A stretch of DNA of 64,000 nt. It comes from Hermatobates lingyangjiaoensis. Lineage: Eukaryota > Arthropoda > Insecta > Hemiptera > Hermatobatidae. The notes under the pieces are model-generated. The model had not been told where the DNA came from and ran no database searches. It worked only from the letters and a program-made list of their open reading frames with translations. The DNA lies in the NCBI GenBank assembly GCA_026182355.1, contig JAPFBL010000555.1:196501-260500 (forward strand), in the 5' to 3' direction. This document shows, in pieces, positions 1,165 to 60,401 of the stretch. The position numbers and the translations under genes are program-made. The number at the start of each line of letters is the position of its first letter. The first letter of the stretch is position 1.

Positions 1165-1381
1165 TTCACTGTTTCGTTATTGAGGGCTAGGTCAAATAAA
1201 AGAAAATAAACTCCTTTCTAGGCCGACGTTTCGATGTATTTGTACATCATCTTCAGGGCTAAAATTAGAGTAAGACTATAATTTTAGCCCTGAAGATGAT
1301 GTACAAATACATCGAAACGTCGGCCTAGAAAGGAGTTTATTTTCTTTTATTTGACCTAGCCCTCAATAACGAAACAGTGAA
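1165..1381. repeat. Inverted-repeat element with paired hammerhead-like cores
   Basis: Two arms of about 100 bp, nearly perfect reverse complements (1165-1267 and 1279-1381), surround a 11-12 base centre and are flanked on both sides by (TA)n. The right arm carries CTGAAGA (1290-1296), one T, a 6-bp hairpin GATGTA/TACATC with loop CAAA, GAA (1314-1316), the palindrome ACGT and C1321. The left arm has the mirror copy (1225-1256). Flanks TAGCC and GGCCTA can pair as stem I with one bulge. This is the cleanest three-helix copy in the window. Confidence 0.85.
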
Positions 1382-1394
1382 TATATATATATGA

Positions 1395-1870
1395 ATTAAA
1401 AATCATACTTATTTTAAACTGCTGTATTAGTTCTAGACTTCTATGCTATTATATTCTAGATGTATACGTATACAGTCATCATCAAAGAAAACCAAAGATT
1501 TTTCAAAACAAAAACATGTAATACAAATTATAAAAAAAAAAAAAAGTTGAATTAACTGGCTACTCAAACAAATATAATAAACTTTCAACGACTTTTAAAA
1601 AAAAATAGTTTTGAAAAATTTAAAATATTTAATATTTAATTTTCAAATATTACAGTTGAAAAATCCGTTTAAAATAGTAATTGCGCATATAAAACATAAA
1701 AACAATTACGACCTTAAAACTCATTTCGGTATAAAATGTCAGATTTTTTTGTTAGCTTTTTGAGATTTTCCTTTTTTTTTGAGATTAGCTTCCTGTTTTC
1801 TGTTTTTCCACCTGCAAAATGCCGCCTCCGGAGCAGATATCCCCCCCCCTAGCATACACCGACCCGGTGA
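1395..1870. mobile_element. hAT-type miniature element fragment
   Basis: Shares long blocks with 11330-11760, 10463-10863 (reversed) and 32345-33001 (reversed): a Cn/Gn-rich end, ATCCGTTTAAAAT, AAAAACAATTACGACCTTAA and a GTCATCATC-like block. The other copies have CAGTG ends and 8-bp target duplications. I did not find both ends here, so it is probably truncated. Confidence 0.55.
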
Positions 1871-2010
1871 GGATGCCCCCTCCCTTGCTGTGCAACTGTT
1901 TAACCAGAAGTTCTCCTTTGTTTCTTTAAATGTATCTTTGACACCGTGGACTTTCACAATGTCTTGATTTATTTGTTTGACCTTGTTTCTTTTTCTTTTC
2001 CTTTTATCAG

Positions 2011-2079
2011 CTGATCGAGATGTACAAGAACCAAGAAATCGAATACGAGCTGTCCAGCAAGGTTGAGTTCTGTGCCTGA
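2011..2079 (+). CDS. Terminal coding exon of an upstream gene (3' partial)
   Basis: A pyrimidine-rich tract and acceptor (TTTTCCTTTTATCAG, ending at 2010) precede an open frame LIEMYKNQEIEYELSSKVEFCA followed by TGA at 2077-2079. Codons are G/C-rich at third positions (GAG, CTG, TCC, AGC, AAG), unlike the surrounding AT-rich DNA, which is the main reason to call it coding. The first codon begins right at the splice site if the intron is phase 0. The product is charged and helix-prone; I do not recognise the protein. The rest of the gene lies to the left, beyond or near the window edge. The alternative +2 frame (ending GTTGA) is also open but less protein-like. Confidence 0.5.
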   Translation: MIEMYKNQEIEYELSSKVEFCA

Positions 2080-3290
2080 ACGCCGGAGGATTGTCTTCTT
2101 GGCCCATATTCTTTCCCGTCATCGTCCACTTTCTTCGTGTTTTCTTTTTTTTTTATTCTAGTCAATGTGTTCTGGTCTGTAGTCCTAATTTCAATTGTTA
2201 TTAGACACTGTTTTTTTCATTCTCTTTTATTAATGTTTGCCATTGTCAACATTGTTTAACCTTTTATTTTTTTTTTTTAGATATAAATATTTATTTTACA
2301 TGTTATAAATGATGTCTATAACAGTATATAATTGTTGGGGGAGGGTTCATTTATAATAACTAATTCTGAACCCTGCCATTTAGTTGAATATAAAGTTACA
2401 GAAAAAAAATAATGACCAAAAAAGTTATAATTCCATGTTAAAAAAAAATGTGTTGAGTGATTTTTAGAATATAAAATGAAAAAGAAAAAGACTTAAAAGA
2501 ATGAGTTGTATTTTGTGTGATATTTAATGTTTTGGGCCAATCCTCCCAGTGGAGGAAGATTTTTTTTCGGTACACCAACTGTTTGTTAAGAGGAGGGAGG
2601 AATCAGTATTCAAACGATGCCAAACAAATAATGACTTGCCAAAACTTTCATAGCTTTTAAAATCAGAAGCAGAGTTGTGATTCTTTATCTCTTTCTGCTT
2701 GAGTATCCTTTTTTTTTTTTTTTTTGTTACACTATTGTATTTTGTTATTTAATATAGATAAATATATTTAAATATCTCAGTAAGAGCAACATAAATTATA
2801 TTAACTGTTGGCATTTTTTTTTTACTTTTAAAAATTTTAAAAGAACAGTATGTTTTTAAGAATAAGAGGTCTTTAAGATTGTTGTAGTATGTTTCAAGAA
2901 AATATTTATATATTCATTTATAACTGACCACATATCTTCTCTTTCAATAGATATTTGAAAAAAAAAAACAAAAAAAAAGATTTTAATCTCAGATTTTTTA
3001 ATAATTAGATCTGAAGGTAATTCTAGATCGTCAACTGTAAAACTGTGCCTACTTTAAAAAAAAAAACATAGTAATTATTATATTGTTTTGGGTTAGCAGT
3101 TTTTAACACTGCCTTCTCTTGAACTTTGTTACATTCCAAGAACATTGTAAAAAATAATAATAATAATTTCTTTTTATTGATGTTTTAGACAATTCAATTC
3201 CAGTTCAAAGGAAAATCTATATTCTGTATTGATTCTTCTAGTGCAATAAAAATTGAATTTATTAATGTTGTTTATACGACGTGATTTCTT
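2080..3290 (+). other. Probable 3'UTR of the upstream gene
   Basis: AT-rich sequence from the TGA at 2077 to AATAAA at 3245-3250, followed by a T/GT-rich stretch (TTGTTTATACGACGTG) suited to cleavage. It holds several poly-T and poly-A runs but no recognisable interspersed repeat, in contrast with the regions on either side. That supports a transcribed UTR. Confidence 0.4.
3245..3250 (+). terminator. Polyadenylation signal AATAAA
   Basis: Canonical hexamer about 1.17 kb after the stop codon at 2079, with a GT/T-rich element 15-45 bases downstream. Proposed 3' end of the upstream transcript; no transcript data. Confidence 0.4.
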
Positions 3291-4734
3291 GTCTTTATCA
3301 TTTACAGGTATTGCCACTTTTTTTTCCTTTTAACATCGAAACATATGTTGTATTTTTATTATATTTCTAATCCGTTTGTGTGGAGCAGATACTTCCTTTG
3401 CATAGATTAATAGTTATTAAGCTAAATTCAACTTCTATATTGAGTTCTTAGTTATTACTTTTTATTTGATTAAAACTATTCCTTAGTACAGCTCCTTTCG
3501 CAGCCTTGCTTGGTCCATGCACCCCTCCTGCCATTTGTTACAATGTCATTTCCCCCCCCCCCCCTTTCTTTCCAAGATCGTCTTTAACAAAAAGTCCATT
3601 CTAAATTATATACAAATATTACAAAAAATTCTTTAGTAATTTTTTTTTCTTTATTATGTCTCAATTATTAAATGCTAATTAAATACAATTAAAATAGTAT
3701 TTTTTTTTATTTGTAATTAAGAGGTTAGAATCTATAATTGATTTCCTCTCTCTGTAAACTTACTGTGGAAACGCATCACTCCTTGAAACCCATTATTCAT
3801 CACTGGGGGTGAATTTCACCCCAATTGAGAACCCCTGCCTTAGGTAATTCTCTTATTCGTTGAAGTGTCTTGCAATATTTTACCGGGAAGAGCAACCAGA
3901 GATGAAGTAGTTCTCAGGTACTAGTGGAAATTTTTGTATTTTAACTACTCCGTCCATAATCAATATTTGCACCTATAATAATCTTATTTTTTTCTTTTTT
4001 TTTAAATAGGGTAATCATGGTTAGACAATTTGGTCTCTTAATTTTTATTTTTCTCTTTCATCATTTCTGCTTATGATGGTTTAAATAACTTGCAAAATGT
4101 TATTTGTAACTTAACTAATAAAAATTCAAACTGGGCTTCTTGAGTATTTGCTCCAGTTCATGGACCTAATTCTCAAGAAACCCATTTTGAATTTTAAAAA
4201 TCATTGGTTGAGAAGCTATACCAATATTAACTAATTAATTACTAACTTAATTAACTGATTATCTTAGCTATAATTCTTGTTATTAACCGATAATTAATTA
4301 TTAAAATAATTCTTTTTCTATATTTTAACGAATATACGCAAATTCTTTTGAGTCCATTTTTGAAGTTTTTGTTTTTTTATTGTGTTTTTTTTATTGTTGG
4401 GTGTGTATCCAAAAGTTTGTGGAGATGCTGCAAGTTACGCCGTTTTGATGGATCCAATTTATACAAAAAAAAAAAACAATCCCTTATGGTCAAGATGAGC
4501 CTATAGTTTTTGGGTATTTTTGCATCAAAAGAAGCCAACTTTATTGTCTATTAATTGAATTTAGATCTAATTTTTCATCGTGGTTTACTAACTTATAGAG
4601 TACTGGAAAAAGTCAACCTCCCAGCGTTCCCGAGCTTCATCCATGCCATAAATAGGGTTAAATCACCCTAGGACATTACTTATAGTTTCAAAAATGTATA
4701 ATGTATAAGACAACGTCTTACCTAGTTATGTTAC
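3291..4734. other. AT-rich intergenic sequence
   Basis: No gene seen. Poly-C/T near 3553, and a hAT-like right end at about 3795-3832 (GGGGTGAATTTCACCCC then GAGAACCCCTG); no matching left end was found. Otherwise low-complexity A/T. Confidence 0.35.
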
Positions 4735-4910
4735 ATGGGATCTTCCTTTTGCTCCGAAATATCATTCGTACCAAGTGTAACCGTTTCGCGATGTAAATAT
4801 ACTGTTGCGCGAATAGTATCGAGTTGCCCGCCTCCGCGTGGTCCACCTTGGGCGTCGCCATGTGAATATGCGACAGCTAAAGGGCAAATCGTAAAAAGAC
4901 AACCTGACTT
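4735..4910. other. GC-richer segment of unknown nature
   Basis: A CpG-containing block in AT-rich DNA. Both strands have short open frames of about 60 codons that show no family I recognise; the minus strand starts MATPKVDHAEAGNSILF. It could be a remnant of a retrogene or transposon. Confidence 0.3.
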
Positions 4911-5355
4911 GATTTAAAAACGATATGGCCTGAAATATTGGCTTGGTGCATATAAAGGTCAACACAGGTTTACTAACTTAAAAAGTTGTTATTTTGTAAT
5001 AAGCGTTGAACTGATATTCGCAAGAACCGAAAACAAAAATCATAATTTTTTGACAAAAGAATAGGACTTTTAGCTGAAGATTTGATCTGAAGGTTTGCTA
5101 ACACGTTACTGGTCACTCCATTTACCTGATCTTAATGAGGCTAAACATATGAAAAATAGCTCATTCAGGAGAATGAGGTATATAGTATTTTGTGAATTCG
5201 GATCTTAGAAAAGATACACTACAATACATTTATTTTTCGCAAAACTAAATTCCATTCCATTAAATTTTGCCACTGAAAGGTTTATCTAAAATTCTGTGCT
5301 ACAGCAAATATTTGAAGAACTTGGGCCTCTGAGGGGAAACAGTAGGGTATTATAA
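4911..5355. other. AT-rich intergenic sequence
   Basis: No gene, RNA or clear repeat recognised. Confidence 0.3.
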
Positions 5356-6052
5356 ACGCAATACTAATCTTTGAATAATGAAATTGTTTTGTTATATATA
5401 AAATGATTGTTCAATTCTTGTGCAGACTTATAGTGTGGTAAATAATGTGGTAACACATATTAAGGGATCAAGAATTACGTCTCCACACAAAAAAAGAGTT
5501 TAATAAGAAACTAACAACGCGTTTCCAACAGTTATTGATCTTCTTCAGGTTAACATCTACACTGTTGAGAGTCGATTTACGGAAAAGACTTCAGGAACGG
5601 CAAAGCAGATGTTATCCAGAAGAAGAACACCAAGAGTTCGAAACGCGTTGTTAGTTTCATATTGAACTTTTTTTTTGTATGTGTAATCGTAATTCTTGAA
5701 GTTCCTCAAAAAAATTATTGACAAAATATAAAGTGTTTAAAACTAGTTTAAAAGCGAATACCAAACGGTCGTATGGTATGGTATAAATGTGAGTGTTGTA
5801 CTCGTGATTCCATGAGTTGTTTGAACTGGGGGGGACATTACATGGCCTCATAACTGTCGTTCCAATTTGATTAAATAATTGTTGAATGAAGATAATGTTA
5901 TGATTGGTACCATAGAGGTTATTAGAGATAAACTAAGAATAATAATTGGATAACAAGGACTTGAAGGTCGACTGGGGAAGAAAAAGTATACAAGGTAAGG
6001 TGGTACATTCTACTTCTTTAATTGTAGAACAATTTAAATATGTTTGATATAC
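5356..6052 (-). repeat. Penelope-like derived repeat, copy 1 (inverted partner of 17755-18429)
   Basis: This segment is the reverse complement of 17755-18429 over almost its whole length, with small indels. It contains two facing hammerhead-like cores: minus at about 5518-5547 and plus at 5617-5649 (CAGAAGA, A, GAAC/GTTC hairpin, GAA, ACGCGT, T). The stretch 5700-6050 beyond the cores is unique to this family. Confidence 0.75.
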
Positions 6053-6504
6053 AGGGCTGGTGAAAAGTCACCCAACAGTAAATCAAAACCATTTTATTAC
6101 AAGAAGTATTTATTTTTAACAACTGAATGAATTTAATAAAACAAGTAAATTTGAAACATCTTTGAAATTGTTTGAATTGAAATCCTTTTTACTTATGTTA
6201 CTATGAAAAATCCTTAAAATTGTTCAAATTGACATGAATGAGCGATACATTTCCTATTGGAGTCAATACAGAGTGACAGATTTGACGACACAGTTCCTTA
6301 TTAGTACTGTTTGTTAGAACTGAGATATTGTTGCAGCTAGAGTCCTTGTTTCTCCTCTATAAACTTTATCTTTCATCATTCCACCTCTAACCACCTTTGA
6401 CTCAGAGTATTTAATCAATAAAAAATCATATTTGGTATGAATAAAAAAAAAACTGAATTTTATGTTGTTTATGTAAGTTTTTAGCCAACTCGATATACTT
6501 AATG
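6053..6504. other. Sequence between two shared blocks of the inverted duplication
   Basis: Not found at the matching position on the right arm, so either inserted here or lost there. AT-rich; no coding signal. Confidence 0.3.
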
Positions 6505-7570: not shown

Positions 7571-7579
7571 GTATGGGTT

Positions 7580-9243: not shown

Positions 9244-9482
9244 TTAACCTGGTTGATTGAAGTCTTCAGGATTGCTGGCATCCCTGTCTGAATTTAATGT
9301 TCCTAAAATTGAAGGAGTCTTGATCTGCTTGTTAAAAGGATCAATCAATTTTAGGAACATTAAATTCAGATAGGGATGCCAGCAGTCCTGAAGACTTCAA
9401 TCAACCAGGTTAACTTGTTATTATATGTTTTTGTTTAGTTCCTTTAGCTCTCTGATGATGTTGTAACCAAAGGCCTTAGAAC
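9244..9482 (+). repeat. Inverted repeat followed by hammerhead-like core
   Basis: Arms 9244-9312 and 9345-9413 are near-perfect reverse complements. The right arm runs on into CTGATGA (9452-9458) and the palindrome AGGCCT; the GAA is mutated to CAA. The same right arm recurs at 45534-45690, where GAAAGGCCTT is intact. Confidence 0.75.
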
Positions 9483-9535
9483 ATTGTAACTAATATATAT
9501 TTGTTGATTGTGCTGTTTAATTTATATATATATAT

Positions 9536-9937
9536 ATGATCAGATGCCAAACCTGTCTTATCATAAACCCTAATCCCTTTTTTACTTCCCCCCATAGCAA
9601 TATTAACTACCCTTGTCCTCCCCACACCTCATGCACCTCGGTTAATTGCGTTTACCGTTTGGACTGCACCCAGTGTGATGCATTCTACGTTGGTATGGCC
9701 TCTACGCAGCTCAACTTACGTATGAATGGTCACAGGGCTTCCGTTGGTCAACGCAAAAACCTTCCTATTGCTATCCACTCTAATTCCCATGGACTGGATT
9801 TTAATCACTGCTTCCGGGTCCAAGTCCTTAATCATATCCCTGTTCAGTCTTCTCGGGTTACTTTAAGAGCTTCAGAGGAGGCAATTATCTGTCTTCTCAA
9901 AGCTCGCTCTCCTCCTGGCCTTAACTTGTACCGTTAA
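9536..9937 (+). CDS. GIY-YIG-like C-terminal part of a Penelope-like retroelement
   Basis: An open frame of 133 codons. The centre reads NCVYRLDCTQCDAFYVGMAS...LRMNGHRAS. CVYxLxCxxCxxxYVG followed by a conserved R and H is the signature of the GIY-YIG endonuclease at the C-terminus of Penelope-like elements, which nicks the target for reverse transcription. The N-terminal reverse transcriptase is absent: upstream is (TA)n and a different repeat, so this is a 5'-truncated copy. The start codon shown is simply the first ATG; the real frame would continue from the lost RT. Stop TAA at 9935-9937. About 290 bp downstream lies a hammerhead-like core. Confidence 0.7.
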   Translation: MIRCQTCLIINPNPFFTSPHSNINYPCPPHTSCTSVNCVYRLDCTQCDAFYVGMASTQLNLRMNGHRASVGQRKNLPIAIHSNSHGLDFNHCFRVQVLNHIPVQSSRVTLRASEEAIICLLKARSPPGLNLYR

Positions 9938-13519: not shown

Positions 13520-13925
13520 GAGTTCAATGTAGATAAAGAAATATGGAGAAATTAAAAATACACAGTCTATAATTTTAGGTTTGAACCGTCTTTAGGAGAA
13601 ATAAGAGAGGGAAACCAAGAACACTGGTTCCCAGAGAGGCCAGACGAGTCTCTATATCAGTGCACTTGCTTTTTTTTCTCTTCTCCTGAAGATGGTTCAA
13701 AACGAAAATTGGAGACTGTGTGTTTTTAATTTCTTTATCTAGATTGAAAGCGCACTGGTACAGAGACGTTTGGAGACCATCTCTGTACCAAACGGGTCTC
13801 CAACAATCTCTGTAACAGTGTGCTTGGTTTCCTTCCCTAATCCTGAAGACTGTTGAAACCGAAAATTACAGACTATGTATTTTTAATGTCTCTATGTTTC
13901 TTTATCTACATTAAACTTTATTTGT
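13520..13925. repeat. Double inverted repeat of the TTCAATGTA family
   Basis: Left end GAGTTCAATGTAGATAAAG, right end CTTTATCTACATTAAAC. It contains one minus core (near 13580) and two plus cores: CTGAAGA at about 13684 and about 13850, each followed by a GGTTC-type hairpin and GAAAATT. An older, more diverged relative of 48349-48645. Confidence 0.75.
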
Positions 13926-17754: not shown

Positions 17755-18429
17755 AACATATTTAAACTGTTCTACAATTAAAGAAGTAGAATGTACCACC
17801 TTACCTTGTATACTTTTTCTTCCCCAGTCGACCTTCAAGTCCTTGTTATCCAATTATTCTTCTTAGTTTATCTCTAATAACCTCTATGGTACCAATCATA
17901 ACATTATCTTCATTCAACAATTATTTAATCAAATTGGAACGACAGTTATGAGGCCATGTAATGTCCCCCCCAGTTCAAACAACACATGGAATCACGAGTA
18001 CAACACTCACATTTATACCATACCATACGACCGTTTGGTATTCGCTTTTAAATACTTTATATTTTGTCAATAATTTTATTGAGGGATTTCAAGAATTACG
18101 TCTACACTCAAAAAAAAAAAAGTTCAATATGAAACTAACAACGCGTTTCGAACTCTTGGTGTTCTTCTTCAGGATAACATCTGCAAGTCGTTCCGAAAGT
18201 CTTTTCCGTAAATTGACCCACAACAATGTAGATTTTAACCTGAAGAAGATCACTAAGTGTTGGAAACGCGATGTTAGTTTCATATTAAACTCTTTTTTTT
18301 TTGTGTGGAGACGTAATTCTTGAAATTCCTTAATATGAGTAAATACCGTACTATAGCAGGTTGCACAAGAATTGATCAATCATTTTACATATAACAAAAC
18401 AATTTTATTATTCAAAGATTAGTATTGCG
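17755..18429 (+). repeat. Penelope-like derived repeat, copy 2
   Basis: Inverted partner of 5356-6052. Minus core at 18140-18172; plus core at 18240-18271 (CTGAAGA, A, GATCACTAAGTGTTG, GAA, ACGCGA, T). Flanks TTAAC and GTTAG can pair as stem I. The long open frames across it on both strands are by-products of the inverted structure. Confidence 0.75.
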
Positions 18430-20085: not shown

Positions 20086-20205
20086 AAGATATTTCAACAT
20101 CTGTCGTCGTGGGAGCCATTCTGGATCATACTTTGAAAACAGAATCTTGACTCACTTCATCCTCCCTGATGACAACAGATGTCGAAATATCGTTGTGAAT
20201 TTTAA
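20086..20205. repeat. Facing hammerhead-like pair of the GAAATATCG family
   Basis: Minus copy at about 20090-20116 and plus copy at 20166-20191 (CTGATGA, C, ACAGATGT region, C, GAA, ATAT, C). The plus copy ends in the same GTTGTGA as the tail of the Penelope-like element at 10255. Confidence 0.65.
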
Positions 20206-26434: not shown

Positions 26435-26640
26435 CAAACCACAATATGAAATAGGGAAAGAAAAGATAAGATATTTCAACCACAACAAATGGTCTTCTTC
26501 AGAGTCAAAAAACCCAACATATTGTGGTTTGATCATTGATTGTTATTTCACGATCAACTTTTCTTTCCTGAGGACGCTGTTAAAAGGGTCGAAATATTGA
26601 ATGTGAGTCATAGAATGTTTTTTCACTCGTGTTTTTCAAA
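26435..26640. repeat. Two adjoining hammerhead-family half elements
   Basis: 26435-26550 is an ATGATCAAACC-family hairpin with minus core (AGATATTTCAACCACAACAA..CTTCTTCAG). 26551-26640 has a plus core: CTGAGGA (26568), GCTGTTAAAAGGGTC, GAA (26591), ATAT, T; this core type recurs in minus at 56386-56416. Confidence 0.7.
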
Positions 26641-28683: not shown

Positions 28684-28713
28684 CTGAAGAAGACAAATAA
28701 ATGTCGAAACGTC
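28684..28713 (+). ncRNA. Hammerhead-like motif
   Basis: CTGAAGA (28684-28690), A, GAC/GTC hairpin with an 8-base loop, GAA (28706-28708), ACGT, C28713, then GGCGAG. GCC before and GGC after can pair as stem I. Same family as 1290-1321 with a shorter stem II. Confidence 0.5.
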
Positions 28714-34019: not shown

Positions 34020-34400
34020 CACAAAAAAAGAGACTAACACTGACAGTTCTCGAACATCCTGGCTGACTTGCCGTCTTCAGGAGAAAAAGGAAAAGAAGGA
34101 ACACAAAAGTCATAGTATATATACAATATATTTATACTATGTATTAATAAAATATTAACACAGAAAAAAAATTCTAACGTAGTGCAATCACTTATTATGT
34201 GGTATTTACTCATTGTAGGGTAAAAAGTTATTGAAATGGTCCCCACATATAAAAATTTAATGGTATAAACAACGCGTTTCGAACACTTAGTGTTCTTCCT
34301 CAGGCATTAACTAAGGGTGAGTAACGACACTCACACTTAGTTAATACCTGAGGGCACACACTACGTATATATGTTATACCATTTCAGTAACTTTTGACCC
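34020..34400. repeat. Hammerhead-family repeats
   Basis: 34030-34100 is a diverged minus core (CCGTCTTCAGGAG). 34215-34400 has the GGTAAAAAG arms and a very clean minus core at 34271-34303: CTGAGGA, A, GAACAC/GTGTTC hairpin, GAA, ACGCGT, T. Confidence 0.75.
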
Positions 34401-36429: not shown

Positions 36430-36730
36430 TTCACTTAATTAAACGAAACACGATCCAAACTGGACACAATACGAGTTGAAAATTCAAGAAGAGTAACACA
36501 AAGAGTAAGGTAACAAACACACTTACAGACTCAAATTTTCGGGTAATGGGTTACTTGCTGTTGCATCTACAACGTGCTTGGTCTCCCTCCCTTTCTCTTT
36601 TCTCCTGAGGACGGATTACCCGAAAATTTAAGTCTGTAAGTGTGTTTCCTTTCTCTGTATGTTACTCTTCTTGAATTTTGAACTCGTATTGTGTCCAGTT
36701 TGGATCGTCTTTCGTTTAATTAAGTGAAAT
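36430..36730. repeat. Long inverted repeat, GTCCAGTTTGGATCGTC family
   Basis: Arms about 36432-36545 and 36610-36729 are near-perfect. Plus core: CTGAGGA (36605-36611), C, GG..CC hairpin, GAA (36622-36624), AATT, T. Flanked by (TA)n on both sides. Confidence 0.85.
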
Positions 36731-38504: not shown

Positions 38505-38705
38505 GGATAACTTATCAAACGATTACAAGAAAACACTTAAAAACACACAACTTGAAAATTTCGACCTCGTCGTCATCAGGAGAAAAAGATCTGTTTCTGT
38601 TTGCCAGCTGAGCAGAACTCATCTTTCTCTTCCTGATGATGGAGAGGTCGAAATATTGAAATCAGTTGTGTGTTGTTTCTGCGTGTTCTTTTCGTTAAAT
38701 CATTA
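38505..38705. repeat. Inverted hammerhead-like pair
   Basis: Minus core at about 38556-38579 (CTGATGA, C, GAC-GAG-GTC, GAA) faces a plus core at 38633-38657 (CTGATGA, T, GGAGAGGTC, GAA, ATAT, T). Outer arms ACACACAACTT and AGTTGTGTGT. Confidence 0.75.
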
Positions 38706-40189: not shown

Positions 40190-40690
40190 GGGATTTCAAA
40201 AATTACGTCTCCACAGAAAAAAAGTTAAATATGAAAACTAACAACGCGTTTCGAACACTTCCCGTTCTTCTTCAGGTTTCATCTAATATATATATATTTT
40301 TTTTTTTTTTTCAATCAAAATTTGGTTGCCGGGACGGTTTCCTGCCGTTGTGTTTCCGGCGTGCTTGGTCGCCCTTTCTATTTTCTCCTGAAGACGGATC
40401 ATCCGAAAATTTGCGTTTGTAAATGTGTCTCATTCTCTGTGTGTTGCTTTTCTTCGTTTTTGAGCTAATGGCTTTCAGAACGTTCTTTTTATTTAAAAAC
40501 ATTGTTCTTAAGCAGACAAGCTCAAAGATATTAAATAAAAATATACAAGTTCACAGGTATGTATATTTTTTTCAGACATAAACCTGAAGAAGAAAACTAA
40601 GTGTTCGAAACGTGTTCTTAGTTTTCATATTAAACTGTTTATTGTGTAGAGACGTAATTTTTGAAATTCCCCAATATGAGTAAATACCAC
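40190..40690. repeat. Hammerhead-family pair with a nested half element
   Basis: Minus core 40243-40275 and plus core 40584-40618 belong to the GAACAC family and share the outer arms AATTACGTCTCCACA. Between them 40310-40480 is a half copy of the GTCCAGTTTGGATC family with its own plus core (CTGAAGA 40388, GGA/TCC, GAA, AATT). Confidence 0.75.
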
Positions 40691-45377: not shown

Positions 45378-45690
45378 ATGCTCTAAGGCCTTTCGTTACA
45401 ACATCATCAGAGATCTAAATGAAACAAAAGAGTCCACTTATAAAGAATTTATATGGAAATTTAATGAACAATAGTCTGGGACTTTACAAACTGGATGAAA
45501 TATTAATAAAAGAAATAAGTAAGCAGATCAAGACTCCTTCAATTTTAGAAAAAAATAAATTCAGACAGGGATGCCCAGCAATCCTGAAGACTTCAATCAA
45601 CCAGGTTAACTTGTTAATATATATTTTTTGTTTGTTTCTTTTAGCTCTCTGATGATGTAACGAAAGGCCTTAGAGCATTTTAACTAATAT
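45378..45690 (+). repeat. Penelope-like derived element with facing hammerhead-like cores
   Basis: Minus core 45387-45417 and plus core 45649-45671 (CTGATGA, T, short hairpin, GAA, AGGCCT, T) enclose a 78-codon frame (45419-45652; MKQKSPLIKNLYGNL...) of unknown nature. The right half repeats at 9345-9482. Confidence 0.65.
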
Positions 45691-45761: not shown

Positions 45762-45890
45762 CTAGAATTTTCAAAAGAACACATAGAAAAGAAATCATTG
45801 AACTCACTACTATATTTCGATGTCCTCGTCGTCAGGAATAGACGTGAATCGCTCCAAAGGTTGATAATGACTCAACTTTTGATATATATA
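45762..45890 (-). repeat. CTTTGGAGCGATT-family half element
   Basis: CTAGAATTTTCAAAAGAACA to CGCTCCAAAGG with minus core at 45812-45837 (CTGACGACGAGGACATCGAA, ATAT, A). Confidence 0.8.
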
Positions 45891-46727: not shown

Positions 46728-47040
46728 GTGTATATACAAAAAATAACCGTAGTTACTGTGAAAACAGTAAATATTAAGTCTAAGAGTGTGTGAGCCATTA
46801 ACTAAAACATGACTTTAGTATTCTGAAGACGGTTACAACGAAAAAAGAAACTGTGTTTTATTAAGTTGCATTTGTCCAGTGTTTGTGATAGTGCACTTTA
46901 TTGTCTCTCTGCTGTTATTGATTGGGGATATTCTTATGGAATTTATATTTACAGACAATAACTGATAGTACGCAACTGAAATTAATACTTACTCTAATCG
47001 ATATTTCGAACCTTACGTTTGTCATCAGGAGATGTTGAGA
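46728..47040. repeat. Two eroded hammerhead-family fragments
   Basis: 46815-46860 has CTGAAGACGGTTACAACGAA (TTCAATGTA family). 46955-47040 has a minus core 47000-47038: CTGATGA, long hairpin, GAA, ATAT, C. Confidence 0.55.
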
Positions 47041-47769: not shown

Positions 47770-48271
47770 ATTTAACAAAAACACGTGAAATAAACAATGA
47801 ATGATCAAACTACAATAACAAATTGGAAACAAGACTCTTGTTTTCCCATTTCTTATTGTGGTTTGATCATTGATATATATATATATATAAAGCTTTCACA
47901 TAAACACGTGAAATAACAATCAATGATCAAACCACAATAAGAAATGGGAAAACAAGACTAAGATCTTTCAACCGTAACAAGCGGTCTTCGCTCAGTTGGG
48001 TTTTTGACTCTGACGAAGACCGCTTGTTACGGTTGAAAGATCTTAGTCTTGTTTTCCCATTTCTTATTGTGGTTTGATCATTGATATATATACATATATA
48101 TATATAAAGCTTTCACATAAACACGTGAAATAACAATCAATGATCAAACCACAATAAGAAATGGGAAAACAAGACCAAGATCCCCCAACCGCAACAAGCG
48201 GTCTCCGTCAGAGTCAAAAACCCAACTGACTCTTGGTCTTGTTTTCCCATTTCTTATTGTGGTTTGATCAT

Positions 48272-48312
<41 letters not shown>
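47731..48312. repeat. Cluster of three ATGATCAAACC-family hairpins separated by (TA)n
   Basis: Hairpins at about 47765-47872, 47885-48085 and 48105-48272. The middle one is complete: plus core CTGACGA (48010-48016), A, GACCG/CGGTT hairpin with 7-base loop, GAA (48035-48037), AGATCT, T48044; GACT before and AGTC after pair as stem I. The third has a run of C-for-T changes in its left arm only. Confidence 0.88.
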
Positions 48313-48313
<1 letters not shown>

Positions 48314-48348
48314 TTTTTCGATGAAAATACGATCCGAAATGAACATAT

Positions 48349-48640
48349 ACAGTTCAATGTACATAAAGAAACATAGAGAAATTAAAAACACACACTTACA
48401 GTCTCTAATTTTCAGTTAAACCGTCTTCAGGAGAGATAAGAGAGGGAAACCAAGCGCACTGGTACAGAGACGGTTGGAGTTGGTTGGTACATACTCCAAC
48501 CGTCTCTGTACCAGTGTGCTTGGTTTCCCTCTCTTATCTCTCCTAAAGACGGTTCAACCGAAAATTAGAGACTGTAAGTGTCTCTATACTTCTATATGAA
48601 GTGTGTGTTTTTAATTTCTCTATGTTTCTTTAGTACATTG

Positions 48641-48645
<5 letters not shown>
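48349..48645. repeat. Near-perfect inverted repeat, TTCAATGTA family
   Basis: Arms from GTTCAATGTACATAAAGAAAC and its mirror to a short centre. Plus core at 48543-48565 (CTAAAGA, C, GGT-TCA-ACC, GAA, AATT, A); minus core 48407-48430. Confidence 0.85.
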
Positions 48646-48682
<37 letters not shown>

Positions 48683-48710: not shown

Positions 48711-49304
48711 TCACTGTAAACTATAGACACATGGACAGGTAGTAGCAAATAAAGACAAATGTTGTAATTATTTGCTTGTTATAGTGAACAACTCATTCAC
48801 CTCTACAATGTCATGCTTTTTATTTGTTGAAAGGTTTACGTATATTTTCAAGATATATATTGCACTTCAAAAAGGGTGATGAAGATGAAGTGAATTTTTG
48901 GGGGGATTTAAATTATGTCTTCACACAGAAAAGAGTTTAATATTAAAACTAATAACGCATTTCGAGACATATTTTTTGAAATAACCCAGATAATTTGATT
49001 GTATGGAAATATATTACATTTCAAAAAAAAAAAAAAATGTTTTAAACAACAAGGTCGTTAGAGTTGTTAAAAAGCATTGAATTGTATTGTTGGGTCCCGC
49101 ATATCAGGTTTTTTCATGTTGAGGCAGAAAAGTCAAGTGTATTCTGTCTGTGTGACTTGAGGCAGTAGCTAAGCACTCCTCTTGTAAGCAAACAAGACCC
49201 CAATGAATGTTGGTCACCTGTTGTGTAGAGTATTTCTAATGACTAGTAGTTAATGTTGTTGAACTCGTGAATCTTATTATTAAGAAATTAACAGTATATA
49301 GAGA
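48711..49304. other. Intron 1 end sequence
   Basis: 48900-48965 is a fragment of the GAACAC family (TAATAACGCATTTCGA). The rest is unrecognised. Confidence 0.35.
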
Positions 49305-49557
49305 TGTATTACTGACGATAGATTCATTACTGATGATAGTTGTGTTAGTGACGATGGATGTATTGTAGACTATAGATATGTTTCTGACGATAAATGTATT
49401 TCTGACGATAGATGTATTACTGATGTTAGATATATTACTGATGATAGATGTATTACTGACGATAGATATATTACTGATGATAGATCTGTTACTGACAATA
49501 GATGTATTATGAAGATAGATGTATTACTGATGATAGATATATTACTGACGATAGATG
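49305..49557 (+). repeat. Minisatellite next to the exon 2 acceptor
   Basis: About 13 units of an 18-19 bp repeat (GATAGATGTATTACTGAC with T/C and GAT/GAC variants). It runs to within about 12 bases of the acceptor and so replaces a normal long pyrimidine tract. Confidence 0.85.
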
Positions 49558-49569
49558 TTTGTTTTGCAG

Positions 49570-50089: not shown

Positions 50090-50330
50090 TGATATATATA
50101 TATTATATATATATATATATATAAAGATTTCACATAAACACGTGAAATAACAATGATCAAACCACAATAAGAAATGGGAAAACAAGACTAAGATCTTTCA
50201 ACCGTTGGGTTGAACCAAGTTGGGTTTTTGACTCTGACGAAGACCGCTTGTTACGGTTGAAAGATCTTAGTCTTGTTTTCCCATTTCTTATTGTGGTTTG
50301 ATTATTGATATATATATATATATATATATC
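50090..50330. repeat. ATGATCAAACC-family hairpin between (TA)n tracts
   Basis: Plus core at 50234-50268: CTGACGA, A, GACCG/CGGTT, GAA, AGATCT, T. The left arm's core is cut short (AACCGTTGGGTTGAACC). Confidence 0.85.
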
Positions 50331-51394: not shown

Positions 51395-51805
51395 CCTCTC
51401 TCCCATCACTCTCTCTCTCCCATCACTCTCTCTCTCTCTCCTCACTCTCTCTCTCCTCTCACTCTCTCTCCCCTCTCACTCTCTCTCCTCTCTCTCTCTC
51501 CCACCTCTTTCTCTCTCTCCCTCCTATCACTCTCTCTTCCTCCTATCACTCTCTCTCACTCTCTCTCCTCTCTCTCTCCCACCTCTTTCTCTCTCTCCCT
51601 CCTATCACTCTCTCTTCCTCCTATCACTCTCTCTCCCTCCTATCACTCTCTCTCTCCCTCTCTTTCTCTCCTCTCTCTCTCTCTCAGTCTCTCTCTCTCT
51701 CTCTCTCCCCTCCTCTTTCTCTCTCTCAGTCTTTCTCTCTCCCCCTCCTCTCTCTCTCTCCCCCTCCTCTCTCTCTCTCCTCTCTCTCTCTCTCCTCTCC
51801 CCTCC

Positions 51806-51866
<61 letters not shown>
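51395..51866. repeat. (CT)n-rich low-complexity tract
   Basis: About 470 bases of C/T with CTCTCTCTCC-type units, including TCCTATCACTCTCTCT higher-order repeats. It makes long S/L-repeat open frames that are not genes. Confidence 0.9.
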
Positions 51867-51870
<4 letters not shown>

Positions 51871-54246: not shown

Positions 54247-54350
54247 CTATAAAACAGAGTGGATCGCGAATGAGTTGTCATTCAAGGATATAGCTTTTAT
54301 AACTTGCTCTCGTCTGTGACAGATTGTAACCGTGGCGCTTTGTGTTGCAG

Positions 54351-55474: not shown

Positions 55475-55517
55475 ATACCCGTCTGGATTAAGGGGTGCCC
55501 GGTTGATACCTTGTACA

Positions 55518-55523
55518 AATAAA
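55518..55523 (+). terminator. Polyadenylation signal AATAAA
   Basis: Canonical hexamer about 0.86 kb past the stop codon; TCTGTTCTTTC about 30 bases on is a suitable downstream element. A later ATTAAA at about 55997 is an alternative. Confidence 0.55.
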
Positions 55524-55540
55524 TCATTTTATTTCCAAAT

Positions 55541-56250
55541 GGAAAACAAGTCTGTTCTTTCGGCTGACTCCAGACCAATGTTGTTTTTTGTTCAAGAATT
55601 TTCTATCATTATTTAAAGAATTAATTTATTTCTATTTTAGTTTTCCTGTTCTCTTTTAGAATGGATTCAGGATTTTTTTCAGTTGGTTTTTTTACCCGAA
55701 ATTCTCTTTTTTTGTACCATTATGAGAGAAAATTGATTTCAATACTATATGAATAAATATCTATATATATCAAGTCCATTCTGGAAGTGCTTTAGGATAT
55801 CTATTGTACAGTCCGTATGGAAAAAAAATTGTATTTTATACATTATTATAATATCTTATGTCGGATAAGCTGCATCTTTTTTATTTGTATTTATATAATT
55901 TATTATATTTACATCGTTTTTTTATTATTGCATACAATTTTTTTCTGGTTTACAGCACAATTTTTAACACCTGTGCATAATGTGTAAGAAACCGATTATT
56001 AAAAAAAAATTGTTTCAAAAAAATAACAAATGTTTATTTTCCCTTTTTTTCTATGGATAGCAGCTAAGAACAATTTGGAACTATAAACGTTAGGTGTGAG
56101 ATGGCAAACCTGAGGCATACTGTTGAGGTGGAGGCATGAACTATGATGTTGCCAGATTCTCAACTCCATTGAACACTGCTCTTCTGACAACTGATATGTT
56201 TATGTTGCAGTTGCTGTAGTGACTTTCTCAGTTCTTTTCTATGTTTTAAT
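55541..56250. other. AT-rich downstream sequence
   Basis: No repeat family recognised; may be part of a longer alternative 3'UTR. Confidence 0.3.
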
Positions 56251-56251
56251 G

Positions 56252-56252
56252 C

Positions 56253-56285
<33 letters not shown>

Positions 56286-56425
56286 CACCGTCAAGTGAAT
56301 TGACGGAGGAACGACAGTCAACTAAAAAATTAATTAATATATATATATAAACACGAATGAAAAACAGAAACTAGGATTCACATTCGATATTTCGACCCTT
56401 TTAACTGTCGTCTTCAGAAAAGTAC
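56252..56425 (-). repeat. (TA)n and hammerhead-family half element
   Basis: Minus core 56386-56416: CTGAAGA, C, GACAGTTAAAAGGGTC, GAA, ATAT, C. Same core type as 26568-26598. Confidence 0.7.
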
Positions 56426-56800
56426 GTTGGGTGGGGAGAAGACGAAAGCCAACTGGACAGCTTCACAGATATGTACAGGTTGGTGTCACAACGAAAAAGC
56501 AAAGTGGTAGGAATAGCTGAAGAAGAAGAATTCCAATGAAAAAAAAAAACAAATATAATAATAAAAAATTGAAACTTCATTAATATAAAATTCAAAAGAA
56601 CAGAAAATTAACAATTAATAACATAAATAAAAAAAAATTAAATTTAGGGAAAATTCACCTTTAAAAATACGACTTAAGGGTTCAGGTTGATGCCTGGACC
56701 TGAACCAGCTCCTAGGAGGAGCCATATATCACCTTCTTCATAAGCTCTTAAAGTGGCTGATCTATTGTGTCGAGGGACTGTTTTAAGTATCTGAACTCTG

Positions 56801-56815
<15 letters not shown>
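56426..56815. other. Intergenic sequence
   Basis: 56690-56790 is GC-richer, unrecognised. (CA)n at 56801. Confidence 0.3.
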
Positions 56816-56832
<17 letters not shown>

Positions 56833-57165
56833 TATATATATATATAAAATATATATATATCAATGATCAAACTACAATAAGAAATGGGAAAACAAGACTA
56901 AGATCTTTCAACCGTAACAAGTGGTCTTCGTCAGAGTCAAAAACCCAACTGAAACACTAGATGCAGAAAACATCTGGTGAGGGGTTGAGAAGAGTGGGAG
57001 GGAAGAGTGGTATTTTAAATACCACTAAAATATATATACTATATATAAACTAAGATTTCACAATAAATGCGTAAATAGAAATGAACATCCCAAAACACAT
57101 GAAACATAAAAATGAGTAAGATCTTTCAACCAAAACAAGCGGTCTTCGTCTTTCTTGGAATGTTC
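56816..57165 (-). repeat. (TA)n and two ATGATCAAACC-family half elements
   Basis: Minus cores at 56900-56934 (AGATCTTTCAACCGTAACAA) and at about 57118-57152 (AAGATCTTTCAACCAAAACA). The second is more diverged. Confidence 0.75.
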
Positions 57166-57665
57166 ATTAGGTGAGATTTGATTCACTTGAGGAGTAACCC
57201 CCCTAAAATTGACCATCAGTTTTCCTGGATCAAATCAAACTGTCAAATTCGGTTTATATTTTAAACCTTTTTCACAGATAGAAGCAAAAATTTATTGAAT
57301 AAGGAAAACTAAGATCTTTTCATTATCGCAGAATTAAACAAAGTGTTAATAACTAAATAAAACCTTCCAGTAGACTGTTTAAATATAACCACGGTATATA
57401 CTGTTATAAAGGGTGTTGTTAACAATATCCTTTTACTTTTAATACAGAAGGGTTACTGTAACCTTTATGTCTTAAACGTGCCAATATCTCCAACAGACTA
57501 TACTATTGGAGATATTAGTTTTTAATTTTGAACTGTTATAGTGTTAGTCCTGCAGTTTACAGGTTTTTTGCAATCAATAAATTCTTACGTCTACCTTTGA
57601 ATATGGTTTTAAATGAAAAAAACGAAACGTTGACATTTGAGACTTCGATTTAATTCGTTACTTGT
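57166..57665. repeat. Diverged GAAACGTCGGC-family element
   Basis: TTTTCCTGGATCAAATCAAA, CCTTTTTCACAGATAGAAGC on the left; AACGAAACGTTGACATTTGA on the right in mirror orientation. An old copy of the 45929 type. Confidence 0.6.
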
Positions 57666-57689
57666 GCAATCGGTTATAGTGTCGTGTTT

Positions 57690-57835
57690 GCTGATATTGG
57701 GGATTTAAAAAATTACGTCTCCACACAATTAAAGAGTTTAATATCATTGCTAATAATGCGTTTCGAACACTTAGTGTTTGTTTTGATATTAAACTGTTTT
57801 TTTTTTTTGTAGAGACGTAATTTTTGAAATACCGT
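57690..57835. repeat. GAACAC-family inverted repeat, partial
   Basis: AAAATTACGTCTCCACACA ... TAGAGACGTAATTTTTGAAA arms, one minus half core (AATGCGTTTCGAACACTTAG). The opposite core is deleted. Confidence 0.7.
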
Positions 57836-58221
57836 AAGACTCTAGAACCCGATTTTATTTAAGTGTCCTTGTATCAAACAGTCAATATGTTTCAAGTTAT
57901 AATTTATATATATGTTAATTAAAAACTAAAACTCAGAAACACAAAACACAGTCAGAAAGAATGTTGATCTTAAAATTGTGGCCCTCATAGTGTACAGGAG
58001 AACTGATGAATAGAGATTAGTAAAAAGTCGAAGTAGTTCACAGACAGTTGCAAAGTTACACAGAGTTTATACTGTGATCGCCGCTTTGTGAACACCAAAA
58101 GTGATAACATTTTATCGTTAATGAGGATAAAACTGCAGGTGCAGAAAAAAAATTCAAATAAATGAAATATGTATGTAATAAATAGTAAAATTTAATACAG
58201 ATGTAACACAATAAGTCGTTT
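57836..58221. other. AT-rich intergenic sequence
   Basis: Nothing recognisable. Confidence 0.3.
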
Positions 58222-58229
58222 GTTTAAGA

Positions 58230-58675
58230 CAGTGTTTCCCAAACTTTTTCGACTGACCGCCCCCTTGGGTCCATAAACCTATAACTCAACACCCTTGAAT
58301 AATAATCAGATTCCTAGACTAAATAACCAAATGAGTGACATTTTAATAATTCAATTAAAATAATTACTAATTGAATATTTATTTAGAATCCAATAGGTGT
58401 ATTGTTTCACAGCATATTTATGCAAAAGAATACACCATAAAAGAAACTTAGGCGAGAATATACTTTTAACATAAAAATGAATTACCAAAACAAATAATTT
58501 TAAGAAACTGTTTCCTAGAAGTTTACATGTTGTGTTTTCACTTAAATTAAAAATTATATTGCATGAACATTTTCAATTTATGAAAATAGAATCCCCGCTC
58601 CTTTTTGCATTACCGCCCCCCGATATCAAAGCATCGCCCTCAGGGGGGCGGTACCGCCCACTTTGGGAAACACTG
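58230..58675. mobile_element. hAT-type miniature element with perfect 8-bp duplication
   Basis: Inverted ends CAGTGTTTCCCAAACTTT and AAGTGGGCGGTACC side (read ..ACTTTGGGAAACACTG). GTTTAAGA stands at 58222-58229 and 58676-58683. Subterminal GACCGCCCCC / GGGGGGCGGT. 446 bp, AT-rich middle, no transposase. Confidence 0.92.
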
Positions 58676-58683
58676 GTTTAAGA

Positions 58684-59735
58684 AATCGTTTACCTTTATC
58701 TCTTTCACGTCTTTTCGCACTTAATTATATATAAAGAAAACGTATTTTAATGAAGTTCAAATTGAGATCTATTTTGCACGTAACAGTACGTGAATACCTT
58801 CCCATATTTCGTTATTCGTTGGAATGCGCACTGCTGGTTGATCATCGTCTGCTTCATAGTCACTGCCTACTTTATTCTCCCCAGTCTGTGTAAACAGCAT
58901 AGCAGACGTCACCCTCTGTTTACTTTGCAGCCACCTGCAGGTTACTGTCTACTCCTCGAAGTCTATTAGCGTCAGGTCACTTGGTTTTTTTCAGTCACAT
59001 GATTTGCTTGGTCATCCTCAGGGTGGGTACATATACCTCAGTAACAAGATGTGTAAAGTATTCAAGGAGTCAGAGGGCACTTATTATTGCCGGGGTTGTA
59101 ATGCTACACGAGAAACCAACGTTCTTGAAACAATTTTAATTATTTCTTCCGAGTCACCTTTTCTGACATTTGTAAACCACATTTTCAAAGTGAATTCGAT
59201 TTAGTGTCTTTTCCAGTCTGTCTTCTTTTGCCCAACAAATTTTTGGTTTCCTTTGATAATTTTTTTTTTTGAAATAATATTTAATGTAAATTTATTGTTA
59301 TAAATTAATTTATACTTATTTTGTAATATTTCGATCATTTGTATATATTTATGAAAAAAGCAAAAATTAGTAGCGGTGGTGTGACCTTGGACGATCCATC
59401 CTAGAAAGCTGATGTAATCATATCGCGCGTGACCGCCATGTCAACGGACATGGCCCTCATGAATATACCAGCCTCAATAGATAAACAGTATTACGCCTAA
59501 CTGCTTCTTTGACTTTAAACTTATATGGGCATTCAACCAACTTGGATCGCCTTCTGCTAAATTACACAGACTTTAATGACATGACCGAAGCTAAACAGTA
59601 TTAGGCATGGCTTGCACTTGGATGGGTGAAAACACCCATTAAATGTAGACTTTCAACAAAAAAAAGTTCACGAACTTTGTAAAACTGGGCTGGTTCTTCA
59701 TTGAGAGCCTTGCATTTTGTCATATTCATAGTCAT
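58684..59735. other. Intergenic sequence
   Basis: No gene recognised; 58880-59130 and 59380-59470 are GC-richer but without a signature. Confidence 0.3.
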
Positions 59736-59737
59736 AT

Positions 59738-60000
59738 AGTTGGAGACCCTCTCCAACCGTCTCTGAACCAGGGCGCTTGGTTTCCCTCTCTTATCTCTCC
59801 TGAAGACGGTTCAAACCGAAAATTAGAGACTGTAAGCGAGTTCTTTTGATTTCTCTACGTTTCTTTATGTACATTGAACTATATATATATATAGGTGTGT
59901 TCTCTAATCGGGGTTCGGTCAATTTTCCAGGATAAAAAATTGACCGAACCCCGATAGAGAACACACCTATTCTATCAAACGGTCGATATATTATTGAATC
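59738..60000. repeat. TTCAATGTA-family half element and a short GGTGTGTTCTCTAATCGG hairpin
   Basis: Plus core 59800-59825: CTGAAGA, C, GGT-TCAA-ACC, GAA, AATT, A, with CTCTC before and GAGA after able to pair as stem I. Then (TA)n and a collapsed hairpin of the GAAACGTCGGC family (59893-59970) that has lost its core. Confidence 0.8.
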
Positions 60001-60001
60001 T

Positions 60002-60401
60002 GTTATATATATAAATATTCTATATATAATATATACTATATATTATATATATACTAGAATTTTCAAAAGAACACACAGAAAAGAAATTACTGAACTCACT
60101 ACTATATTCAATGTCCTCGTCGTCATATATATAAAACCTATGCAGAATTATATATATATATATATATGCAAACTAGAATTTAAAAAGAACACATAGAAAG
60201 GAAATCACTGAACTCACTACTATATTTCGATGTCCTCGTCTTCAGGAAAAGAAGTAAATCGCTCCAAAGGCTGATAACGACTCAGTTGGAGCGATTTACT
60301 TCTTTTCCTGAAGACGAGGACATCGAAATATAGTAGTGAGTTCAGTGATTTCCTTTCTATGTGTTCTAGTTTATTCAGTTCGAAGAATCGTTTCATCTAA
60401 T

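Follow-up and report, generated by a model that had tools for sequence, protein, structure and literature searches.

A 64,000-nt window of Hermatobates lingyangjiaoensis DNA (JAPFBL010000555.1, positions 196,501-260,500; "the window" means this whole stretch) was noted in a preliminary description to hold about 30 sites with a hammerhead ribozyme-like core, which raises the question of what these sites are and which elements carry them. We scanned both strands with a strict pattern: CTGANGA, a fixed number of extra bases, stem II, GAA and a palindrome running from A to T. The pattern matched 16 window sites with one extra base, 0 with none and 1 with two, whereas 40 Markov-1 simulations gave 0 matches with zero or one extra base and a mean of 0.025 with two; there were also 0 matches in the reversed window and 0 with 11 scrambled cores. 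Chance origin of the strict motif sites is excluded, and the described order of CTGANGA, constant extra base, hairpin, GAA and palindrome stands. Of the 73 CTGANGA strings listed, 40 were picked by eye as window sites bearing a hammerhead, whole or partial, so the figure of about 30 was fair, but some of the sites are decayed. The motif sites discussed here are as follows:

1110..1390 (approximate limits), no strand assigned: head-to-head inverted terminal-repeat pair
1225..1256, minus: hammerhead motif, ACGT stem III, extra T; head-to-head with 1290 (strict scan)
1290..1321, plus: hammerhead motif, 6-bp stem II GATGTA/TACATC, ACGT, H17 = C, extra T (strict scan)
5516..5548, minus: decayed motif, ACGCGT, mismatched stem II
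9452..9477, plus: hammerhead motif, AGGCCT, CAA in place of GAA
12956..12985, minus: hammerhead motif, AATT, extra T (strict scan)
13686..13711, plus: decayed motif, AATT, H17 = G
13843..13868, plus: decayed motif, AATT
18140..18172, minus: hammerhead motif, ACGCGT, extra A (strict scan)
18240..18272, plus: partly decayed motif, ACGCGA, 5-bp stem I; head-to-head with 18172
20166..20191, plus: decayed motif, ATAT, extra C
26470..26502, minus: hammerhead motif, ATAT, extra A (strict scan)
26568..26598, plus: decayed motif, ATAT, extra C
28684..28713, plus: hammerhead motif, ACGT, H17 = C, extra A (strict scan)
34271..34303, minus: hammerhead motif, 6-bp stem II GAACAC/GTGTTC, ACGCGT, extra A (strict scan)
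36605..36629, plus: hammerhead-like motif, AATT, 2-bp stem II
38555..38579, minus: hammerhead-like motif, ATTT
38633..38657, plus: hammerhead-like motif, ATAT; head-to-head with 38579
40243..40275, minus: hammerhead motif, ACGCGT, extra A (strict scan)
40388..40412, plus: hammerhead motif, AATT, extra C (strict scan)
40584..40614, plus: partly decayed motif, ACGT, H17 = G (strict scan)
45385..45410, minus: hammerhead motif, AGGCCT, extra T
45811..45835, minus: hammerhead motif, ATAT, extra C
47000..47028, minus: decayed motif, ATAT, extra C
48010..48044, plus: hammerhead motif, 5-bp stem II, AGATCT, 4-bp stem I, extra A (strict scan)
48406..48430, minus: hammerhead motif, AATT, 4-bp stem I, extra C; tail-bearing arm (strict scan)
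48543..48567, plus: decayed partner arm of 48430, core CTAAAGA, tailless, stops at (TA)n
50234..50268, plus: hammerhead motif, AGATCT family (strict scan)
56386..56417, minus: hammerhead motif, ATAT, H17 = C, extra C (strict scan)
56900..56934, minus: hammerhead motif, AGATCT family (strict scan)
59800..59825, plus: hammerhead motif, AATT, 4-bp stem I, extra C (strict scan)
60221..60245, minus: hammerhead-like motif, ATAT, 2-bp stem II; head-to-head with 60308
60308..60332, plus: hammerhead-like motif, ATAT, 2-bp stem II, extra C

All six palindromes reported earlier (ACGT, ACGCGT, AGATCT, AATT, ATAT, AGGCCT) occur in the window, and ACATGT was found in a 200-kb genome sample. Window and sample together gave 38 sites whose stem II has 3 bp, and there the base 3' of the palindrome was T in 23, C in 11, A in 3 and G in 1; the claim that it is never G holds for 37 of these 38. 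Among the 16 strict sites it fails at 40584. A fixed-length pattern run on the genome was useless (27 matches vs 26 in the reversed control).

Whether the sites share a fold was judged from a pairing-blind count over 59 sites with core, GAA and palindrome, pooled from the window and the sample. Stem II was fully paired at offsets 0, 1, 2, 3 and 4 in 0, 38, 2, 0 and 4 sites, respectively, and at 21 of the 59 the first three stem II positions were not all paired. Stem II covariation was 0.325 versus 0.156 when shuffled (reached by 0 of 500 shuffles) and at most 0.138 in slid alignments; the 44 rows used were chosen partly by their pairing, and two of five covariation measures (both-side changes and further pair types) fell inside the shuffled range. 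Core columns were more conserved than near flanks in five seeds from four families (0.951/0.837, 0.976/0.855, 0.964/0.793, 0.928/0.855 and 0.967/0.948; Fisher p = 3e-6, 7e-9, 3e-10, 0.03 and 0.03, in the same order), and among the seven CTGANGA columns conservation was lowest at N7 in 5/5 seeds, strongly so in 3. The hammerhead-like core, CTGANGA and GAA around stem II, is upheld by the strict scan and by this conservation; the proposed selection on RNA structure gains from offset pairing, hairpin covariation and core conservation alike. The palindrome lay at A15.1 in 25 of 35 sites selected without using it, in keeping with a self-complementary stem III closing at U16.1, which is loopless, so that it can pair only between two strands. 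Flanks can pair as stem I at the four sites named earlier (1290, 3 bp; 18240, 5; 48010, 4; 59800, 4), and across 15 distinct sequences 2.8 of 4 stem I pairs formed versus 2.1 when shuffled (1 of 1000), although at many sites only 0-1 pairs were contiguous. Predicted RNA dimers had the hammerhead as minimum-energy fold in 0 of 44 sites and favored the hammerhead dimer over two separate monomers in 2 of 44; dimer folding of these 44 sites gave no support for the hammerhead dimer as a stable form. Rfam, suggested earlier as a check, returned no hammerhead in the window at the gathering threshold or at E<=10, and this search is uninformative because its models miss such minimal forms. At E<=10 Rfam gave 53 matches, many of them sub-threshold MIR, the best of which lie on a long palindrome (1187-1360) with similar scores on both strands.

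Contrary to the textbook core, stem II never directly follows A9 in the strict sites; one base lies between, A, C or T depending on the family (C in 10 of 38 sites). The description was right that this departs from the textbook, but an extra base is tolerated in known hammerheads, as viroid and viral-contig precedents attest: the viroid hammerhead CChMVd(+) has one separating A9 from the first base pair of stem II, an A where ours varies by family (PMC3705267), and 36 of 83 viral-contig hammerhead pattern sites carry one. As reported in PMC3705267, C as the extra base is strongly harmful in a viroid hammerhead.

The carriers of the motif were sought among Penelope-like elements (PLEs), of which the window holds one fragment:

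9533..9937, plus: PLE truncated at its 5' end; what remains is the C-terminal part of the ORF, a GIY-YIG-like endonuclease, and the stop codon

This fragment belongs to the commonest PLE family; its residues 4-134 are 100% identical in many copies, and its Pfam GIY-YIG match (E 0.0065) is under the cut-off. PLE ORFs are 948-959 aa long with RVT_1 (E 2.5e-8), and homologues were found. No GIY-YIG was reported for the whole PLE ORF at E<=0.01; among relatives, P0037 passes and P0001 is under its cut-off. A PDB sequence search with the PLE ORF gave no match, nor did Pfam on the endonuclease piece of a second lineage, which weakly matched the endonuclease end of PLE proteins. The Naiad type has an N-terminal endonuclease; we dropped this assignment for the window endonuclease, since full copies place it C-terminally. 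A guessed N-terminal motif was absent from 121 proteins. In the fetched loci of five PLE families the motif lies 200-371 nt downstream of the endonuclease (L012, L016, L019 and L270, besides the commonest PLE), and L029, L030 and L031 have direct repeats ~3.5 kb apart with the motif in each. These loci confirm the suggested link with Penelope-like retroelements. That many non-autonomous families descend from ribozyme-bearing retroelements is correct as to the PLE link, but five families are PLEs with an ORF and so not simply non-autonomous. In AGGCCT and other window families we saw no PLE ORF next to the motif. In the commonest PLE, CCGATGA replaces CTGATGA in 7/7 repeats seen and stem I retains 3 of 4 pairs (CTAC/GTTG); its ribozyme may be impaired because of this U4-to-C core change. 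CTGANGA is intact in four other PLE copies, and the L019 repeat has a changed A13 (GGAATAT).

Insertion structure bears on how the copies arose. Insertion sites are AT-rich, and (TA)n lies 30-230 nt downstream at 27 of 45 sites versus 12% at random. Of these 45 sites, 4 had a direct copy on the upstream side and 4 on the downstream side; for inverted copies the counts were 23 upstream and 7 downstream. The 1110..1390 pair has a tail on its minus arm (beyond CAGTGAATA), whereas the plus arm stops there at (TA)n. In the short AGATCT family, in which no ORF was seen and the copies read are mostly pairs of pseudo-LTRs (pLTRs), 20/20 countable of 25 inverted-repeat pairs have a tail on one arm but not on the other, a hallmark of PLEs; by eye, 5 of 8 further head-to-head pairs have a one-sided tail, the other 3 being unreadable. 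We had considered this family an independent non-autonomous element, an idea dropped in view of longer copies and the one-sided tail. All insertion ends that were read lie past the predicted cleavage site, so cleavage does not set those ends. In head-to-head copies, long hairpins would compete with the ribozyme.

Judging from sequence, the sites are very probably minimal type I hammerhead motifs in pLTRs of several PLE families, together with pLTR-only copies, which PLEs would have left at AT-rich targets. Each RNA would comprise CUGANGA, one unpaired base, stem II, GAAA, a self-complementary stem III of 4-6 nt and U-H, with stem I built by the flanks. A palindromic stem III without a loop implies that a form ready to cleave would need pairing through it between two RNAs, or between two tandem pLTRs of a single transcript; by analogy with published work on other PLEs, the PLE protein probably helps this dimer form. 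A hammerhead in PLE end repeats is a known association; here it appears in several families at once and with an extra core base. The minimal PLE hammerheads of Cervera and De la Pena 2014 and of Luense, Weinberg and Breaker 2017, as presented in PMC6155905 and PMC7761336, likewise sit in pLTRs, have almost no stem III, are thought dimeric and exist in thousands of dispersed copies. Poseidon PAc of Anolis carolinensis (PMC11167929) is similar in that its pLTR has a hammerhead close to where the ORF starts, its target is AT-rich, the tail lies between two RT start sites and both strands are cut and extended; unlike that work, ours compares the sequences of several families in one genome. Penelope of Adineta vaga shares direct pLTRs with an adjacent inverted, head-to-head pLTR, a 31-bp tail on one pLTR and a pLTR extending into the ORF, and the word hammerhead is absent from the searched text of PMC3846280; unlike there, AGATCT copies here are mostly ORF-less pLTR pairs. 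A review calls the activity and in vivo role of PLE hammerheads "still a mystery" (PMC7761336). One genome with several families, intact and changed cores, three extra-base alternatives and readable junctions allows a family comparison that can separate cleavage, folding and dimerisation roles.

Other origins for the sites fit less of this evidence. Head-to-head inverted arms, (TA)n flanks and an AGATCT family in which no ORF was seen could mark the short palindromic units as MITE-like foldback DNA transposons inserting at TA, with an ancestral or coincidental hammerhead likeness; this is highly improbable, given the same fold after RT/endonuclease ORFs in five PLE families, stem II covariation between families and the tail on one arm in every countable pair, unexpected of transposase-cut terminal inverted repeats. 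Non-LTR retrozymes (non-autonomous, hammerhead-bearing retroelements that are short and have a circular RNA) would account for type I hammerheads, short units and co-existence with PLEs as described in PMC7229834, and yet are barely credible here, where tandem direct copies are rare and inverted ones common, stem III is loopless and the read insertion ends lie past the cleavage site. The many sub-threshold MIR matches hint at microRNA precursors, a practically negligible prospect: no MIR match reached the gathering score, and the best fall on both strands of one palindrome.

Within the reading as PLE hammerheads, it is conceivable, though unlikely, that in some families at least a former hammerhead is kept because it serves the PLE protein as a signal for binding or folding, close to where reverse transcription starts, with cleavage lost. 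This would suit the most expanded PLE seen, which has the U4-to-C change and C as its extra base, as well as the report that PLE insertion in vitro is independent of hammerhead cleavage and unaffected by hammerhead mutants (PMC11167929); intact CTGANGA in the four other PLE copies, the variability of N7, the near-absence of G at H17 and the largely paired stem I of the commonest PLE argue against it. We regard as quite improbable that the main reason for keeping the loopless palindromic stem III is pairing between two element RNAs, with dimerisation rather than cleavage selected. Each strand of a self-complementary (TA)n break would then be primed on one paired template, with one priming at each of two RT start sites, which, if true, would explain both the tail on exactly one arm in the 20/20 countable pairs and the persistence of a changed-core ribozyme in the family with the greatest expansion observed. 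The head-to-head pairs, whose arms are near-symmetric in L269 and unequal in L252, are compatible with double priming as well as with self-priming (snap-back).

Of the 73 CTGANGA strings in the window, 16 passed a strict test with one extra base (i.e., a single unpaired base before stem II), 3 bp or more of stem II, GAA and an A-to-T palindrome as stem III, while 0 sites passed with zero extra bases and 1 with two. The same test returned nothing in 40 Markov-1 simulations, the reversed window or 11 scrambled cores, except that sites with two extra bases averaged 0.025 in the simulations; GC content is 29–37% across the window (4-kb steps). In a genome sample of 20 pieces of 10 kb at round positions (195 kb without N), mostly from contigs named by a fixed-length pattern search of the genome, we found 0, 19, 0 and 0 strict sites for 0 to 3 extra bases, and ten scrambled cores combined gave 1, 2 and 1 for 0 to 2. 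This amounts to about 97 per Mb, on the order of 90,000 in the 910-Mb assembly if the pieces are typical, and the density in the window is about 2.6 times that of the sample. A looser test (stem of at least 4, palindrome not required) on window and sample together yielded 1, 35, 1 and 0 sites for 0 to 3 extra bases (12 altered cores: 0–2 per cell).

The preliminary description had called a constant extra base unlike the textbook core. Its constancy held, and what is notable here is that strict sites of Hermatobates invariably carry it, as A, C or T by family (A: 19; C: 10; T: 9; n = 38 sites); precedents do exist, though. A viroid hammerhead is reported, in the available text of PMC3705267, to have one extra base at the same position, where replacing A by U sped up cleavage and C or G in its place was harmful. 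In viral contigs the pattern with the extra base occurred in 97 stretches; we read 83 sites in 80 loci, and 36 of these also had four or more stem I pairs together with a closing CGTH (T in 34, A in 1, C in 1), many of the other 47 repeating one gene-like sequence. Without the extra base, 72 of 87 sites among the matches listed were complete by the same rule. Because viroid and viral-contig hammerheads carry a base there, the position after CTGANGA tolerates one. An extra C might base-pair with G12 and in that way would disturb the core. An extra T after CTGANGA is found in hammerheads of viral contigs L034, L038, L066, L092 and others, with L092 and L066 each holding two or three copies. The literature searched, whose coverage lacks key primary papers, yielded no published statement of a constant extra base in hammerheads of Penelope-like elements (PLEs).

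We evaluated pairing at 59 sites, namely all those in window and sample with core, GAA and palindrome, selected blind to pairing. The first three stem II positions were all paired in 0, 38, 2, 0 and 4 of them at offsets 0 to 4, many sites being copies of the same families, which makes them non-independent. Aligning 44 rows, hand-picked partly by pairing and with gaps in two pairs (15 and 14 rows), gave 91.3% standard cells at the three stem II pairs as opposed to 73.4% on shuffling; covariation was 0.325, compared with 0.156 on shuffling and no more than 0.138 for slides, but both-sided changes and further pair types fell inside the shuffled range. The proposal that the fold is conserved while its sequence changes is supported by offset-1 pairing, covariation and core conservation, and not by the latter two measures. 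A self-complementary stem III was confirmed: among 35 sites chosen without a palindrome criterion, 25 have a palindrome from A15.1, and counts at other shifts were 0–5, except at +1 (19), −5 (17) and −6 (10). Those at +1 are the inner part of the A15.1 palindrome, and we read those at −5 and −6 as centred on GAA, such as TTCGAA. Flanks had also been said to pair as stem I; across 15 distinct sequences this pairing overall exceeds that with shuffled partners, although it is short at many sites. Energy calculations did not favour the dimer.

Conservation was scored on BLAST copies from fetched loci (self excluded; N7 outside the core).

Core versus 14-nt neighbourhood, by seed (families named by stem III palindrome)
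AATT: core 214/225, neighbourhood 739/883, Fisher p 3e-6
ACGCGT, first: core 242/248, neighbourhood 695/813, Fisher p 7e-9
ACGCGT, second: core 188/195, neighbourhood 562/709, Fisher p 3e-10
ATAT: core 116/125, neighbourhood 383/448, Fisher p 0.03
AGATCT: core 766/792, neighbourhood 3491/3681, Fisher p 0.03

The core was better kept than its flanks with all five seeds, the opposite of the refuting outcome named in the preliminary description; the effect is clear in two families and weak in two. Among the seven CTGANGA columns, N7 had the lowest conservation whichever seed was used (ACGCGT and ATAT seeds: 0.25, 0.53 and 0.08, the other six columns there being 0.83–1.00; AATT: 0.86; AGATCT: 0.92). 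In the AATT family, 16 of the 24 rows (counting the seed) retained G12, and 6 of the 8 changes were CG to CA, the pattern expected of CpG decay.

The suggested link to Penelope retroelements was borne out by RVT_1 ORFs with motif-bearing direct repeats. Over 131 residues, an endonuclease fragment (window 9533–9934) matches many genomic copies at 100% identity (of 26,177 first-look candidates, 150 were scored, none below 98%), and three fetched copies of this PLE have uninterrupted frames of 948–959 residues with RVT_1 (E 2.5e-8). Homologues numbered 2,610 among 7,984 scored candidates; those named among 120 matches listed include leafhopper, turtles, tick, bivalves and lancelet. Each of the direct repeats, which lie about 3.5 kb from one another, carries CTAC CCGATGA C GAC GACT GTC GAA ATAT C GTTG, in which U4 is C in 7/7 repeats seen and stem I retains 3/4 pairs. 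Uninterrupted frames (L029, L030 and L031) together with many near-identical copies suggest recent expansion of this PLE. That it reads CCGATGA, although it is the most expanded PLE observed, suggests that cleavage may be lost or weakened. In four other PLE copies the motif follows an endonuclease:

L016: CTGANGA intact, about 371 nt downstream of the endonuclease
L019: CTGANGA intact, about 200 nt downstream of the endonuclease; A13 changed
L012: CTGANGA intact, about 226 nt beyond the last matched endonuclease base
L270: CTGANGA intact, 256 nt past the stop codon

Three pieces speak against this arrangement: a second endonuclease piece in L016 had no motif within the 300 nt read, one in L018 is followed by separate insertions, and the L009 copy had no motif in the stretch read. 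By their endonuclease, L270:1303–1629, L009:2811–3119 and L012:9381–9687 (43–55% identity) form a second, divergent PLE lineage that matches the listed PLE proteins only weakly. In L270 and L012 a conserved reading resembling an ORF start comes after the motif. ACGCGT-type hammerheads (window 34303, 40584, 18240; L020:4658, L022:4021) share, about 100 nt further on, a SKYHTITDCT-like reading that may mark the beginning of an ORF within the repeat.

Many non-autonomous families were said to descend from ribozyme-bearing retroelements. In PLEs a 31-bp tail may lengthen one of two inverted pseudo-LTRs (pLTRs; PMC3846280, available text), and in an Anolis PLE it spans two RT start sites (PMC11167929, available text). 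The AGATCT family (40 copies scored, 97–100% identical, of 128 first-look candidates) had no ORF in copies examined; its 20 best-scoring loci are mostly head-to-head pairs, some extending further upstream. Among 25 pairs found, the tail was on exactly one arm in 20/20 countable ones, some possibly of shared ancestry (L253, L261 and L263 have an identical centre); the remaining 5, diverged or cut, read as 2 one-sided and 3 without tail. By eye, 5 of 8 printed pairs had a one-sided tail (1256/1290, 48430/48543, 18172/18240, L018, L020), the other 3 being too diverged to read. Retroelement descent is supported by the one-sided tail of the AGATCT family, and the sites are not simply non-autonomous families, since five PLE families carry the motif after their endonuclease. 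An inverted copy lies upstream of 23/45 motif sites and downstream of 7/45, and a (TA)n run 30–230 nt downstream of 27/45 (random places: 12%). Head-to-head copies with the tail on one arm were observed at L249–L270 and window 47830–48086, 48311–48670 and 1110–1390, the shorter arm often ending where AT/TA of the element matches the (TA)n target.

Minimal hammerheads in PLE pLTRs are already known and widespread in animals (PMC6155905, PMC7229834, PMC7761336); in other PLEs they are described as acting as dimers (PMC7761336) or as needing the PLE protein (PMC11167929), as far as the available texts go. Fold, location and insertion signature are established here, and cleavage is the predicted ribozyme activity. 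The palindromic stem III would bring together a pair of RNAs or of pLTRs. The insertion ends that we read fall some 20–80 nt beyond the predicted cleavage site, so cleavage is not what sets them, in line with unprocessed RNA as the main substrate reported in the available text of PMC11167929.

The window also contains an 18-bp tandem repeat at 49302–49558 (AGATGTATTACTGACGAT; 14.3 copies), whose CTGANGA strings failed the hammerhead scan, a tandem repeat with a 159-bp unit at 61995–62533 (3.4 copies), and a long CT-rich stretch at 51396–51870.
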